From Candidatus Sumerlaeota bacterium (lineage in GTDB: Bacteria; Sumerlaeota; Sumerlaeia; JAFGJS01), in contig JAFGJS010000099.1 in the NCBI GenBank assembly GCA_016928995.1, positions 1-5,588 of the forward strand: a stretch of 5,588 nt of DNA, written 5' to 3'. Positions 209 through 5,466 of the stretch are shown in pieces. The notes beneath the pieces were generated by a model. The model was given only the letters and a program-made list of their open reading frames with translations, had not been told where the DNA came from and made no database searches. Both the position numbers and the translations under genes were made by a program. Every line of letters begins with the position of its first letter. Position 1 is the stretch's first letter.

Positions 209-3200
209 ATGATGACGGAAAGCACGTTCAACATCGGCCAGACGATCTCGGCGTACACGCTGCGCGGTTTGATCGACACAGATGGCGAGGGTCGCGTGTG
301 GCGCGCCGAGGACGCGAACGGCACGCCGTGGGCGCTGAAGGAATTGCCGCTGCACACCGACGCCTCGTTCGAGTCGTATCAGCGTTTGTTCGACCGGTTG
401 CATGGGCTGCAACACGCGAACCTTGCGGCGGTGAAGGAATTGCTGCGCCCGGGGAAGGCGCTCGCGCTCGTGGCGATGGAGCATCTCTACGGCGAGGACA
501 TGGGGCGCGCCCTGAAGGGCGGGCGGAAACTAACCATCGAGCAGGCCGTGGAATTTTTGCGCCAGGCTCTGGCCGGACTGGAGCGCTTGCATGCAGGCGG
601 GGAATCGGGCAGCGTGTTGATGGGTTGCATTTCACCGGAACGGATCTTCCTGCAAAACAGCGGGACGTATAAACTGCTCACCTTCGCCGGCCGCGGCAGC
701 ATTGAGGATCGTCCCGGACGGGCGCAATGGCTCAGCCCGGAGCGCTTGCAGGGATTCCCGGAAGACGCACGGTCGGATTTATTTTCGCTGGCGGCCACGA
801 CATACGCCCTGCTCAGCGGACTCGCGCCGTTCATCGGCTACACACCGGAGGCCGTGCTGGAGGCGCAGCTGAAGACGGAGCGCGAGCCGCTCACCGCGCC
901 ATGCGGCAACGCCGCGCTCAGCGCACTGATCCTGCGCGCACTATCGTTCCGGCAGGAGACGCGTCCGGCGAGCGCGCTGGAAATGCTGCGTGAACTGAAG
1001 CGCGTGGAAGTGCGCAAAGGAGCGCGGGCACAGACGACGCGGCTGCCCGTAATCCTGCCGCTGGGGCCGGCGCGCAGCGGCAAGACGCTTTGCGTCGCCG
1101 ATCTGTGGTTCGCCTTTAAACACGGCGACGGCGGACTGAGCGCCAGCATCCATTCGCCGCGCGACGAGAAATGGCTCGACGGCTTGCTGGAGCCGCTCAA
1201 GATGGGGATGGACCTGCCGCTGACCGAGGACGAGCAGCCGCGCGTGATTCCGCTGACGCTACGCCGTCATGGGCGCGTGCTGGGCGACTATGCATTGATC
1301 GATTACGCCGGGCGGCACTTCGACAGGCTGGCTGCCGGAGAGCCGTCGCCGCTCACGGAGTTCGCACTGGCGGACAGCATGCTCATTGCCGCGTTGCCGG
1401 ATTCCACCGATGAGACCGCACGGCAGGCGCAACTGGAAAGCATGCGCCGCGCGCTGCGGAATTTAACACAGACAGACACGGGCAAACACACCGCGCGCAA
1501 AAGCATTATATTGACCTCAACCTCCGCCCGGCCTGACGTGAAAGCGCTGCTGCGTGAATTCAAAAAAGTCTGCACGCCAGTCGTCGTGAAAGTTAAGAAA
1601 AGCGACAAGCCCAAAGCGAAAGACGTGTTCGCCGCCGCGCTAAAAAAACTACATCCGCCCGCTTCGCGTCAATTTGCTTTTCGTGCAATGCAAATCCTTC
1701 TCACTGTGCTAGTCGGTTTTCTGTTACACTCCAACCTTAATTGGCAGCTGTATCGATATCAAAGGAGCCAGTTGGCGCAACTCATCAACAAGCCAATTGA
1801 GCAATATCAGCCAGGGGAAATCACCCAATGGGTCAAACATAGCTGGCTCCCTTCGAATATATATGGCTATCGCGATAAATTTCCTGAAGACCTTTTTAAC
1901 GCCCATTCGAATGCCATCGAAACGAGCGCTGATCAATACAAACCGATCATTTCCTCTCTCGAAGAGATTTTTTTCAATTCGAAGGATATTCAGTTTACCA
2001 ATAATCAAACAGCTTTGGATCGGCGAAAAACAATTCTTGAATCGAATCCCTCATCCTATCCAACCGCAAGATTGAAGGATCCTGCGCTCTATCCACAAAG
2101 CGAATGGCGCAAAAACATGCTCCAGTTGAATCAAGCAGTTGATGAATATACACAAAGCGGTCATCTAGAGAAAATTTCCGATCTTGCCGAAGCAGCAAAA
2201 TTGCTTGCTGGAGATAATTTTTCACAACCGCCCAACTTCGTATCTTATATTATATCCTATCGACGCGACAAAGCATTCTTGCTGGTCATTCATCCTATCT
2301 ATAGGCATTATGACGCGCAATTTCAGATGCAATACTTGAAAGCCGTGGAGCAGCCGGAGCCGGGTGTGGTGACGGCGCCGGAGGCGATTGCGCTGTTCCG
2401 CGAAATGCACTCTTGGGAAGAGACACGCACCGCTGTGGTGAAGAATTTCGTACTCGACCCGGATGGCTGGGCCGAGGCGGAGAAGATGATCGCGCAGTAC
2501 CTGGAGCCGTATCGTGAGGCGGAAATCGAGCCAACGGACGAGGCGCGGCAATGGCTGGCTGGCATGGCGACGCTGCGCGCGGGCTGGAAACAGGTGCAGG
2601 CGGCGGATGAGCGGCGCGACTATGCGCAGGCCGAGCAGGCGCTGGAGGAGACGCTGCAACAAGCCGTCACGCTCCCGTCAACCGCGCTGAAGGCTGCCGG
2701 GGCGCTGAAGGATGTCTACGCCGATTGGCGCGCGATGAAGTTTGGCGAACGCAACCTGGGTCAGGCCGACGCGCGCAAAAGGCTGCGTTCCGACCTGGAA
2801 GACTTCATGCGATCCCACCGGTTGAAGAACCGCGGCTCCACGACGCTGGCGCGGGACATTCCGGATTTAATCGAGTTCCTGTTCGGTTCGCTGAAGGACG
2901 GCGCGACTCCCGAAGAGGCCCTGGGCGCGAAAATGATGAAAGTTCCGCTCGCATGGAAAGTGGCGCTAGATCAAATTTGGACGCAAAACGTGATTCCTGA
3001 CGCAAAAACGCTGCGCTCCGAAATTCGTGAGTTGCATAAAGGCTACGGTCACTTTCTAAAAAACCAGGAAAAATTGAACATCGACATGGAGCGCTGGCGT
3101 CGGCTTGAGCAATCCTGCCTCCGGTTCCTGGAGTTCGACGAGGCGCGCATGGAGCACCTCGATGATGTGTCGGCGGAGTATTTCAGTGCGCAACGCACGA

Positions 3201-3655
3201 TGTACTGCCGCAATTATATCGAGGCATACACCGAGCGCATGCAGGAATTGCGCGTGATCAGCGGGACGATGCGCCTGACCGGCACGGAGTGGAAATGGCG
3301 GGCGCGGGTGTTGTTCATCCAGCATGGCGATCCGCTGGAGGAAAACCTGGAAGACTTGGAATGGAGCGCGGCGGAGGCGGAGGCGGCGTTCCACACCGAG
3401 CCGCTCGAGGTGGATTGGGCGCAGCCGCTGACGCTGGCGATGGTGGCGGAGGTGGACGACTGGGGGCCAAATTCATTCTACCACGGCCGCCGCACGTTCG
3501 AACTGCGCACGCCGTTGATCCTGGAGATGCTGCACGACAAGACGTACGAGTTGGAGTTGCTGCCGAACGACGAAGGAATCAAGGCCGTGCTCACCTTCGG
3601 TCCGCGCTACGCCGGCGCCTGGCTCATCAGCGAAGATAAGCCATTGCCAGAATAA
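209..3655 (+). CDS. membrane-anchored pseudokinase / TssM(IcmF)-like P-loop NTPase fusion protein
   Basis: Residues about 16-265 form a PknB-type kinase fold. Lys44 (WALKE), S-P-E at 176-178, the SDLFSLA helix at 189-195 and Arg252 are kept. The glycine loop is degenerate (D23, D25, only G28 kept), HRD reads MGC (138-140), the catalytic-loop Asn is Arg145, and DFG reads TFA (158-160), so phosphotransfer is unlikely. Residues about 279-481 form a P-loop NTPase with Walker A GPARSGKT (286-293) and DYAGR (365-369). The latter resembles DTAGR in TssM/IcmF. The expected NKxD base-reading motif is not evident (LTSTSARPD, 435-443). A basic stretch precedes one hydrophobic segment (about 493-509), predicting a cytoplasmic N-terminus and about 640 residues outside. 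That part is mostly helical, with a Trp-rich, beta-like end (about 1020-1140). The start is ATG 209 or 212. GAGG at 205-208 is too close for a normal Shine-Dalgarno, and no in-frame start exists back to a TGA at 140-142. A partner-controlled signalling or secretion role is inference. Confidence 0.9.
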   Translation: MMTESTFNIGQTISAYTLRGLIDTDGEGRVWRAEDANGTPWALKELPLHTDASFESYQRLFDRLHGLQHANLAAVKELLRPGKALALVAMEHLYGEDMGRALKGGRKLTIEQAVEFLRQALAGLERLHAGGESGSVLMGCISPERIFLQNSGTYKLLTFAGRGSIEDRPGRAQWLSPERLQGFPEDARSDLFSLAATTYALLSGLAPFIGYTPEAVLEAQLKTEREPLTAPCGNAALSALILRALSFRQETRPASALEMLRELKRVEVRKGARAQTTRLPVILPLGPARSGKTLCVADLWFAFKHGDGGLSASIHSPRDEKWLDGLLEPLKMGMDLPLTEDEQPRVIPLTLRRHGRVLGDYALIDYAGRHFDRLAAGEPSPLTEFALADSMLIAALPDSTDETARQAQLESMRRALRNLTQTDTGKHTARKSIILTSTSARPDVKALLREFKKVCTPVVVKVKKSDKPKAKDVFAAALKKLHPPASRQFAFRAMQILLTVLVGFLLHSNLNWQLYRYQRSQLAQLINKPIEQYQPGEITQWVKHSWLPSNIYGYRDKFPEDLFNAHSNAIETSADQYKPIISSLEEIFFNSKDIQFTNNQTALDRRKTILESNPSSYPTARLKDPALYPQSEWRKNMLQLNQAVDEYTQSGHLEKISDLAEAAKLLAGDNFSQPPNFVSYIISYRRDKAFLLVIHPIYRHYDAQFQMQYLKAVEQPEPGVVTAPEAIALFREMHSWEETRTAVVKNFVLDPDGWAEAEKMIAQYLEPYREAEIEPTDEARQWLAGMATLRAGWKQVQAADERRDYAQAEQALEETLQQAVTLPSTALKAAGALKDVYADWRAMKFGERNLGQADARKRLRSDLEDFMRSHRLKNRGSTTLARDIPDLIEFLFGSLKDGATPEEALGAKMMKVPLAWKVALDQIWTQNVIPDAKTLRSEIRELHKGYGHFLKNQEKLNIDMERWRRLEQSCLRFLEFDEARMEHLDDVSAEYFSAQRTMYCRNYIEAYTERMQELRVISGTMRLTGTEWKWRARVLFIQHGDPLEENLEDLEWSAAEAEAAFHTEPLEVDWAQPLTLAMVAEVDDWGPNSFYHGRRTFELRTPLILEMLHDKTYELELLPNDEGIKAVLTFGPRYAGAWLISEDKPLPE
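1665..2340 (+). other. AT-rich patch inside the large gene
   Basis: Hand counts over 60-base blocks give 43% GC at 1681-1740, 42% at 1861-1920, 35% at 1981-2040 and 40% at 2281-2340. The next block (2341-2400) jumps to 73%, and other parts of the gene give 65-72% (481-540, 2461-2520, 2581-2640). The reading frame stays open throughout. The patch encodes residues about 487-710: the membrane segment and the adjoining region, rich in Asn, Lys, Ile, Tyr and Phe, with many A/T-ending codons. The right edge is abrupt and the left edge more gradual, with 47-53% GC from 1561 to 1680. Confidence 0.75.
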
Positions 3656-3909: not shown

Positions 3910-5370
3910 GTGTTAACTACAATCAGCCATACATGGTTTACGGTTCTTCAAATACTATGTATTTCGGGTATATTATTATGCGCCGGACAGATGAGTTATG
4001 GCGTAACAGGAGGCGATAAGTTGGAATTCAATGCGGATCAATTTATTGAAGAAGGCATGGGATGGCGAGGCCAGTCCGTCAAATTCCGTGTGTATCACAA
4101 CATCGTCTATGTGTCGAATCCCGTGGACGCGGAATATCAATGCATGAATTTCTTCGCTCCGGTGGAGTACTTCGAGGGCAAGTCCTATGGCCCCTATAAC
4201 GCCGAGACTGCTCCGATCTTTTTTCCGAACACCGTCGGCGGTTACATGCCCGGAAAACCGGGGAATATTCCCAAAGACAGCAGCGAGCGCATCAACGCCA
4301 TCGGCATGGCCCTACTGAAGGGCTACGTCGTGGCGGCGCCGGGCGCGCGCGGACGCAGCCTGAAGGATCAAAACGGCCAATTCACCGGCAAGGCGCCCGC
4401 GTGCATCGTGGACCTGAAAGCGGCCGTGCGTTACCTGCGCTATAACGACAAGGTCATGCCCGGCGACGCCGGGAAGATCATCTCCAACGGAACCAGCGCG
4501 GGCGGCGCGCTCTCAGCGTTGCTGGGCGCCACGGGCGATAACATGAATTACGAGCCGTATCTGACGGCGATTGGCGCAGCTAGTGCGCGCGATGATATCT
4601 TCGCCGCATCGTGCTACTGCCCGATCACGAATCTGGATCACGCGGACGCGGCCTACGAGTGGCAGTTTCACGGATTGAACAATTACAATTCCTGGATGGG
4701 CAAGGGCGTGTTGAACGCGGAGCAGATCGAGATTTCCGCACAGTTGAAGGCGCTATTCCCGGCGTACCTGAACAGCCTGAGACTGAAGAAGGCCGGCGGG
4801 ACGTTGCTGATGCTGGACGCCGACGGCGAAGGTTCTTTCAAGGAGTACGTCAAATCCTTCGTCATCGCGTCGGCGCAGAAGGCATTGAGCGACGGCGAAG
4901 ACTTGTCCGGTCTGGACTGGATGACGATCAACGATGGAACCGTCACGGACATCGACTTCGACGCATTCGTCGCCTACGCCACGCGCATGAAACCGGCGCC
5001 CGCGTTTGATGCGTTGGATTTGCGGTCGCCGGAGAACAATCTCTTCGGCACAGCGACCATCGACAACCAGCACTTCACGCTATTCAGCCAGGAGCATAGC
5101 GCGGATCATACATTGGCGGATCCGGCGACTGTGATGCTGATGAATCCGATGTATTACATCGGCACGCCGGGAACGGCGATGGCGCGGCACTGGCGGATCC
5201 GCCACGGCGCCGTTGACCGCGACACCTCGCTCGCGATCCCCGTCATGCTGGCCGCGAAATTGCGGAACAACGGCGCCGACGTTGACTTCGCGCTCCCCTG
5301 GGGCCAGGACCACGGCGGCGATTACGACCTGGAGGAACTCTTCGCCTGGACGGATCAAATCTGCCGCTAG
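3910..5370 (+). CDS. exported subtype B tannase (tannin acyl hydrolase, serine esterase)
   Basis: This alpha/beta-hydrolase esterase is predicted to cleave galloyl esters of gallotannins to gallic acid. The nucleophile is Ser196 in GTSAGG (194-199). Asp436 and His468 (WGQDHGG) complete the triad, 32 residues apart like Asp419 and His451 of Lactobacillus plantarum tannase. The three galloyl-contacting residues of that enzyme (Lys343, Glu357, Asp421) map to Lys361, Glu375 and Asp438 with identical internal spacing. Other family-like stretches are IFFPNTVGGYMPG (103-115) and CYCPITNLDHAD (235-246). At 486 residues it slightly exceeds the 469 of the L. plantarum enzyme. The extra length fits an N-terminal hydrophobic segment (about 9-25), a probable signal peptide, though its N-region lacks Lys or Arg. 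Cys24 follows Leu, a poor lipobox, so a lipoprotein is less likely than cleavage or a membrane anchor. Translation starts at GTG with a strong Shine-Dalgarno. No partner catabolic gene is visible. A related feruloyl- or other aryl-esterase specificity remains possible. Confidence 0.92.
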   Translation: MLTTISHTWFTVLQILCISGILLCAGQMSYGVTGGDKLEFNADQFIEEGMGWRGQSVKFRVYHNIVYVSNPVDAEYQCMNFFAPVEYFEGKSYGPYNAETAPIFFPNTVGGYMPGKPGNIPKDSSERINAIGMALLKGYVVAAPGARGRSLKDQNGQFTGKAPACIVDLKAAVRYLRYNDKVMPGDAGKIISNGTSAGGALSALLGATGDNMNYEPYLTAIGAASARDDIFAASCYCPITNLDHADAAYEWQFHGLNNYNSWMGKGVLNAEQIEISAQLKALFPAYLNSLRLKKAGGTLLMLDADGEGSFKEYVKSFVIASAQKALSDGEDLSGLDWMTINDGTVTDIDFDAFVAYATRMKPAPAFDALDLRSPENNLFGTATIDNQHFTLFSQEHSADHTLADPATVMLMNPMYYIGTPGTAMARHWRIRHGAVDRDTSLAIPVMLAAKLRNNGADVDFALPWGQDHGGDYDLEELFAWTDQICR

Positions 5371-5402: not shown

Positions 5403-5466
5403 TGGCCGTGTAGTGACCGTAGTATTACCGTAGTTCAACCGTACCCGCCCGGTCACTACACGGCCA
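5403..5466. repeat. second long inverted repeat (17-bp perfect stem) after the tannase gene
   Basis: Arms 5403-5419 (TGGCCGTGTAGTGACCG) and 5450-5466 are perfect reverse complements around a 30-nt loop (5420-5449). The right arm is followed by ATAAATTCG, not a T-tract, so an intrinsic terminator is not supported. It starts 33 bases after the tannase stop and may still stabilise or end that transcript by another route. The stem differs from that of the repeat at 3768-3856, so this is a different element. Confidence 0.85.
5416..5445 (+). repeat. three ACCGTA direct repeats at 11-nt period
   Basis: ACCGTAGT occurs at 5416-5423 and 5427-5434, and ACCGTA with following C at 5438-5444, so the starts are spaced exactly 11 nt apart. 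The first copy overlaps the end of the left arm of the hairpin and the other two lie in its loop. About one helical turn of spacing is typical of protein-binding arrays, but three short copies could also come from slippage. Confidence 0.6.

Follow-up and report, generated by a model that had tools for sequence, protein, structure and literature searches.

A candidate single-pass membrane protein joining a pseudokinase to a degenerate DO-GTPase2-like NTPase

The gene at positions 209–3655 encodes a protein in which a pseudokinase precedes a P-loop domain with affinity to DO-GTPase2 (PF19993), followed by one membrane segment and a large, presumably extracytoplasmic part. We read it as a kinase-fused, degenerate relative of a layout found in transmembrane (TM)-anchored DO-GTPase-like proteins, which would act in membrane signalling both as a scaffold and as a switch; we give this assignment roughly even chances. 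The window, i.e., the whole 5588 bp stretch analysed, is one entire contig (G000:C144) from a genome of 4.55 Mb, which is 92.5% complete. Consistent with the initial annotation, the reading frame starts with ATG, remains open without interruption across 1170 codons and yields a product of 1148 aa; that it represents real coding sequence is supported by its GC3, which is 0.7–0.9 for most of the length, as in the neighbouring tannase gene. The following features were delineated:

209–3655, + strand: entire gene (1148 aa), coding in this order for a pseudokinase, a DO-GTPase-like NTPase, a TM segment, a putative helical part and a putative beta-rich part (ORF translation)
254–1018, + strand: pseudokinase domain, residues ~16–270, with HRD changed to MGC, N to R and DFG to TFA, and beta3 Lys44 kept (Pfam, PDB chain and paralog alignments)
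1061–1528, + strand: DO-GTPase2-like P-loop domain, residues 285–440, PF19993 (Pfam match, motifs, profile comparison)
1673–1738, + strand: single predicted TM segment, residues ~489–510 (hydropathy)
1739–3246, + strand: putative helical stretch, residues ~511–1012, presumed extracytoplasmic (low-confidence model)
3247–3652, + strand: putative beta-rich C-terminal domain, residues ~1013–1148 (low-confidence model)

The kinase fold is recognized by the Pfam Pkinase model (E 1.2e-12) and matches PDB chains of the PknB type (E 5e-15). Its alignment to PknB and seven paralogs from the same genome revealed disruption of the catalytic motifs, with MGC at the HRD site, Arg at the position of the catalytic Asn and TFA at the DFG site. 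The Gly-loop is degraded (DTDGEG) and the alphaC Glu is gone; retained are the beta3 Lys44 and features of the APE region and helix F. All seven sampled kinase paralogs of this genome keep the catalytic motifs, with HLD for HRD in one of them (L002). By its motifs, the domain is a clear, catalytically dead pseudokinase, as had been proposed. The accompanying analogy to PpkA and other threonine kinases of type VI secretion systems (T6SS) fails, because the HRD Asp, the catalytic Asn and the DFG Asp are all missing. A search of genome contigs for homologues of the full protein returned one weak match, restricted to the kinase domain. Two plasmid kinase matches (H1 and H5) considered as potential fusions of a kinase with a DO-GTPase were rejected, being ordinary kinases with active motifs and without an NTPase.

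The P-loop NTPase with a DYAGR motif reported initially is present, with an intact P-loop, GPARSGKT, at residues 286–293 and DYAGR at residues 365–369. When residues 272–484 were scanned in isolation, the DO-GTPase2 model matched with 31.4 bits (E 2e-7), above its curated cutoff of 27, compared to 25.5 bits, under the cutoff, in the full-protein scan. Comparison of the NTPase with a five-member DO-GTPase profile gave a probability of 92.3% over 134 columns in hhalign and 9.5 bits in HMMER (best of 200 shuffles, 2.8); with a more diverse DO-GTPase profile, the corresponding values were 87.8 and 4.6, the latter barely above the best of 500 shuffles (4.5). A sensitive profile of this group retrieves the protein at E 2e-37, a value that is not independent, given that the protein itself is one of the profile rows. 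The spacing between the P-loop and the DxAG motif is 79 here, 80–95 in DO-GTPases and 45–50 in six true TssMs. The conserved Glu adjacent to Walker B is gone, with DYAGR here as opposed to DYAGE, DYPGE, DFAGE, DACGE or DYKGE in the relatives (DYPGG in L038), and manual alignment with relatives, including the Haliovirga protein described below, puts TSTS in the place of the G4 base-specificity motif TKxD. The domain thus appears to be a degenerate DO-GTPase2-like (TRAFAC) NTPase; from the Arg following DYAG and the TKxD to TSTS replacement, we infer a switch that probably binds nucleotide and hydrolyses it poorly. Weak PF19993 matches in members of the same class (L012, L014 and L016–L018) do not extend past the first ~100 positions of the model, and these proteins, judging from ORF length, may be FtsY/Ffh-like GTPases.

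In agreement with the single membrane segment reported previously, a hydrophobic segment starts at ~489 (19-residue Kyte–Doolittle mean, 1.76), and the sole other hydropathy maximum of the protein, at ~191 (1.58), falls inside the kinase fold. Hydropathy and the positive-inside rule point to a cytoplasmic N-terminus and an external location of everything downstream of the TM segment. The succession of a helical and then a beta-rich region is weakly supported: AlphaFold produced no usable fold, with pLDDT of 37 for the full protein and 39 for residues 975–1148, and the putative beta-rich domain matched no family.

The combination of a DO-GTPase-like NTPase with one TM segment, a helical region and a beta-looking end recurs, without a kinase, in three other proteins (L047, L053 and L084), in which helical and beta regions were assigned by eye from the sequence. 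L047, from genome G166, matches PF19993 at E 6.7e-10; L053 is WP_307905608.1 of Haliovirga abyssi, 29% identical to the G166 protein over 274 aa; and L084, from genome G335, is 24.5% identical to the Haliovirga protein over 314 aa. Homologues of L047 sought in its 5-genome phylum, in 376 genomes and in IMG/VR included nothing convincing; the Haliovirga relative came from a plasmid. The genomes gathered as relatives of G166 were largely the same as those gathered around the source genome. On this plasmid, pHIC (11944–15370 of L053), WP_307905608.1 adjoins WP_307905609.1, both annotated as hypothetical, and the two share a helical C-terminal region (31.6% over 228 aa, E 2e-14), which suggests that the pair is built on one module. 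In L084, the DO-GTPase-like TM protein (4100–6825, − strand) adjoins a two-TM gene and a GAP1-N2-like gene, the latter with a borderline score (22.6 bits, E 1.1e-4, just under the cutoff of 24). Although the fusion protein has the same order of regions after the kinase, its C-terminal part has no similarity to those of L047 and the Haliovirga protein detectable by hhalign or HMMER; homology based on a GTEW motif, suggestive by eye, was rejected, with scores at or below those of shuffles. What is demonstrated is therefore a shared layout rather than common descent of the C-terminal part.

Under the reading that we favour, the protein would be a single-pass inner-membrane component that unites a signalling scaffold devoid of catalysis and a switch dependent on nucleotide. 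Its helical and beta-rich part would lie outside and act as a sensor or anchor; binding of nucleotide to the P-loop would couple this outer part to the pseudokinase, and the pseudokinase would dock a partner. DO-GTPase systems are often found near the membrane (PMC7159879), a property that this protein shares along with the P-loop domain, the motif spacing and DYAG; unlike DO-GTPase2, it has Arg instead of Glu in the Walker B region, has lost G4 and is fused to a pseudokinase, and its short contig carries no GAP1. Against this reading speak the dissimilar C-terminus, the missing DO-GTPase Glu, the nearly nil HMMER margin with the diverse profile, the PF19993 score under the cutoff in the full-protein scan, the lack of GAP1, GASH and a second DO-GTPase on the short contig, and the apparent singleton status of the protein described below. 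Active kinases lie next to GAP1-N2 DO-GTPases in an actinobacterial subset, and catalytically disrupted kinases are effectors in MoxR-vWA systems (PMC7159879); a DO-GTPase-like domain fused to a catalytically dead kinase would constitute a new variant. As a tentative proposal that we consider somewhat unlikely, the pseudokinase and the degenerate DO-GTPase-like switch fused to it could together take their signal from an extracytoplasmic sensor, defining a new class of membrane signalling protein and a previously undescribed, kinase-coupled branch of TM-anchored DO-GTPase systems. If true, pseudokinases and DO-GTPase switches would be connected within a single polypeptide. DO-GTPases are also mentioned in connection with envelope-stress (Psp) operons (PMC11237479), and the TM-anchored DO-GTPase-like proteins with the NTPase-TM-helical-beta layout may be components of systems for envelope stress or conflict.

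The initial annotation regarded the NTPase as TssM-like and drew a parallel to TssM/IcmF from the NTPase onward. The coarse order of NTPase, TM segment, helical region and beta-rich end is indeed the same as in TssM/IcmF, DxAGR is shared, and a deep common origin of DO-GTPases and TssM is possible because their profiles are distantly related (hhalign probability, 95.4). However, the IcmF/TssM Pfam models, including IcmF-related_N (PF14331), yielded zero matches at E≤10 to either the full protein or the isolated NTPase, whereas six true TssMs score >200 bits against PF14331 and true TssMs, three of the same class among them, match IcmF models at E 1e-55 to 1e-78. Aligned with the six true TssMs by hhalign, the NTPase reached a probability of 25.8% over 44 columns confined to the P-loop area, and its HMMER score against the TssM profile fell beneath that of some shuffles, so that the domain is clearly closer to DO-GTPase2 than to IcmF. 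Furthermore, hydropathy places the one TM segment after the NTPase, with no sign of the two N-terminal TM segments that form the TssM hairpin; the part following the TM segment has no detectable sequence similarity to TssM; and T6SS markers (PF06761 and PF14331 for IcmF, PF05943 for TssC) were not found in the 92.5% complete genome. On profile scores, motif spacing and the missing markers, we reject the TssM-like reading, and the protein appears to have no sequence relationship to TssM beyond the shared P-loop, despite the similar overall layout. It is thus very improbable that we are dealing with a divergent or derived TssM/IcmF in which the kinase fold replaced the N-terminal hairpin and the C-terminal part spans the periplasm and binds an envelope complex. 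The recurrence of this TssM-like outline in several lineages, with an NTPase from a different P-loop family, is a warning not to infer T6SS components solely from the order of domains. True TssM genes were identified in three genomes of the same class, at L030 (G022), L031 (G017) and L034 (G010), with E 1e-55 to 1e-65, which shows that the class includes carriers of type VI genes; the search of the source genome detected none.

It is unlikely that the protein belongs to an anti-phage or abortive conflict system of the DO-GTPase/GAP1 type in which the pseudokinase would be a sensor or effector adaptor. In favour of such a role are the DO-GTPase2 match, the published association of these systems with conflict (Kaur et al., 2020, PMC7159879), the GAP1-N2-like gene next to one relative (L084) and the similarity of the kinase domain to the PADLOC profiles for PD-T4-6 and MAD6, both defence kinases (E 2e-31 and 2e-17, respectively). 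The PADLOC matches, however, may reflect generic kinase similarity, and the kinase is dead by its motifs. Moreover, the neighbouring gene encodes a tannase, the Haliovirga relative is located among metabolic genes, and no GAP1, GASH, second DO-GTPase or effector gene is present on the 5.6 kb contig, the start of which lies 208 bp upstream of the fusion gene. There is a smaller chance still that the protein does not share its origin with DO-GTPase systems and is instead a regulator of the receptor type or a scaffold for assembly, holding together a membrane complex in the manner of EssB/YukC of type VIIb secretion, in which a cytoplasmic pseudokinase is likewise followed by one TM segment (PMC12599244). 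Here, however, a P-loop domain matching DO-GTPase2 lies between the kinase and the TM segment, whereas no NTPase domain is described in EssB/YukC, and EssB models were not among the Pfam or NCBIfam matches of the full protein.

The fusion of pseudokinase, NTPase and one TM segment belongs, as first noted, to no named family. At E≤0.001, residues 272–1148 have no homologue in 60 other genomes (38 from the same class), and searches of 386 diverse genomes, of 195 genomes belonging to a second phylum, and of plasmids, phages and IMG/VR yielded none that was convincing. For now, the protein appears to be a singleton among about 580 genomes.

Downstream of the fusion gene lies a gene for a tannase of subtype B (3910–5370, + strand; NCBIfam NF041556, E 1.5e-194), the hydrophobic N-terminal stretch of which may be a signal peptide; the contig stops 218 bp past this gene. 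The gap 5' of the tannase gene contains a 32-nt inverted repeat without mismatches, the arms of which (3768–3799/3825–3856) are separated by a loop of 25 nt, and a second perfect inverted repeat, of 17 nt, is found at 5403–5419/5450–5466. Neither repeat matched Rfam, and their fragments are absent from the other loci compared. Within the fusion gene, GC3 drops from ~0.8 to 0.34–0.56 at ~1560–2310 and recovers afterwards; this stretch, encoding the TM segment and the first ~190 residues of the helical region in AT-rich DNA, is possibly a mosaic or fast-evolving segment.
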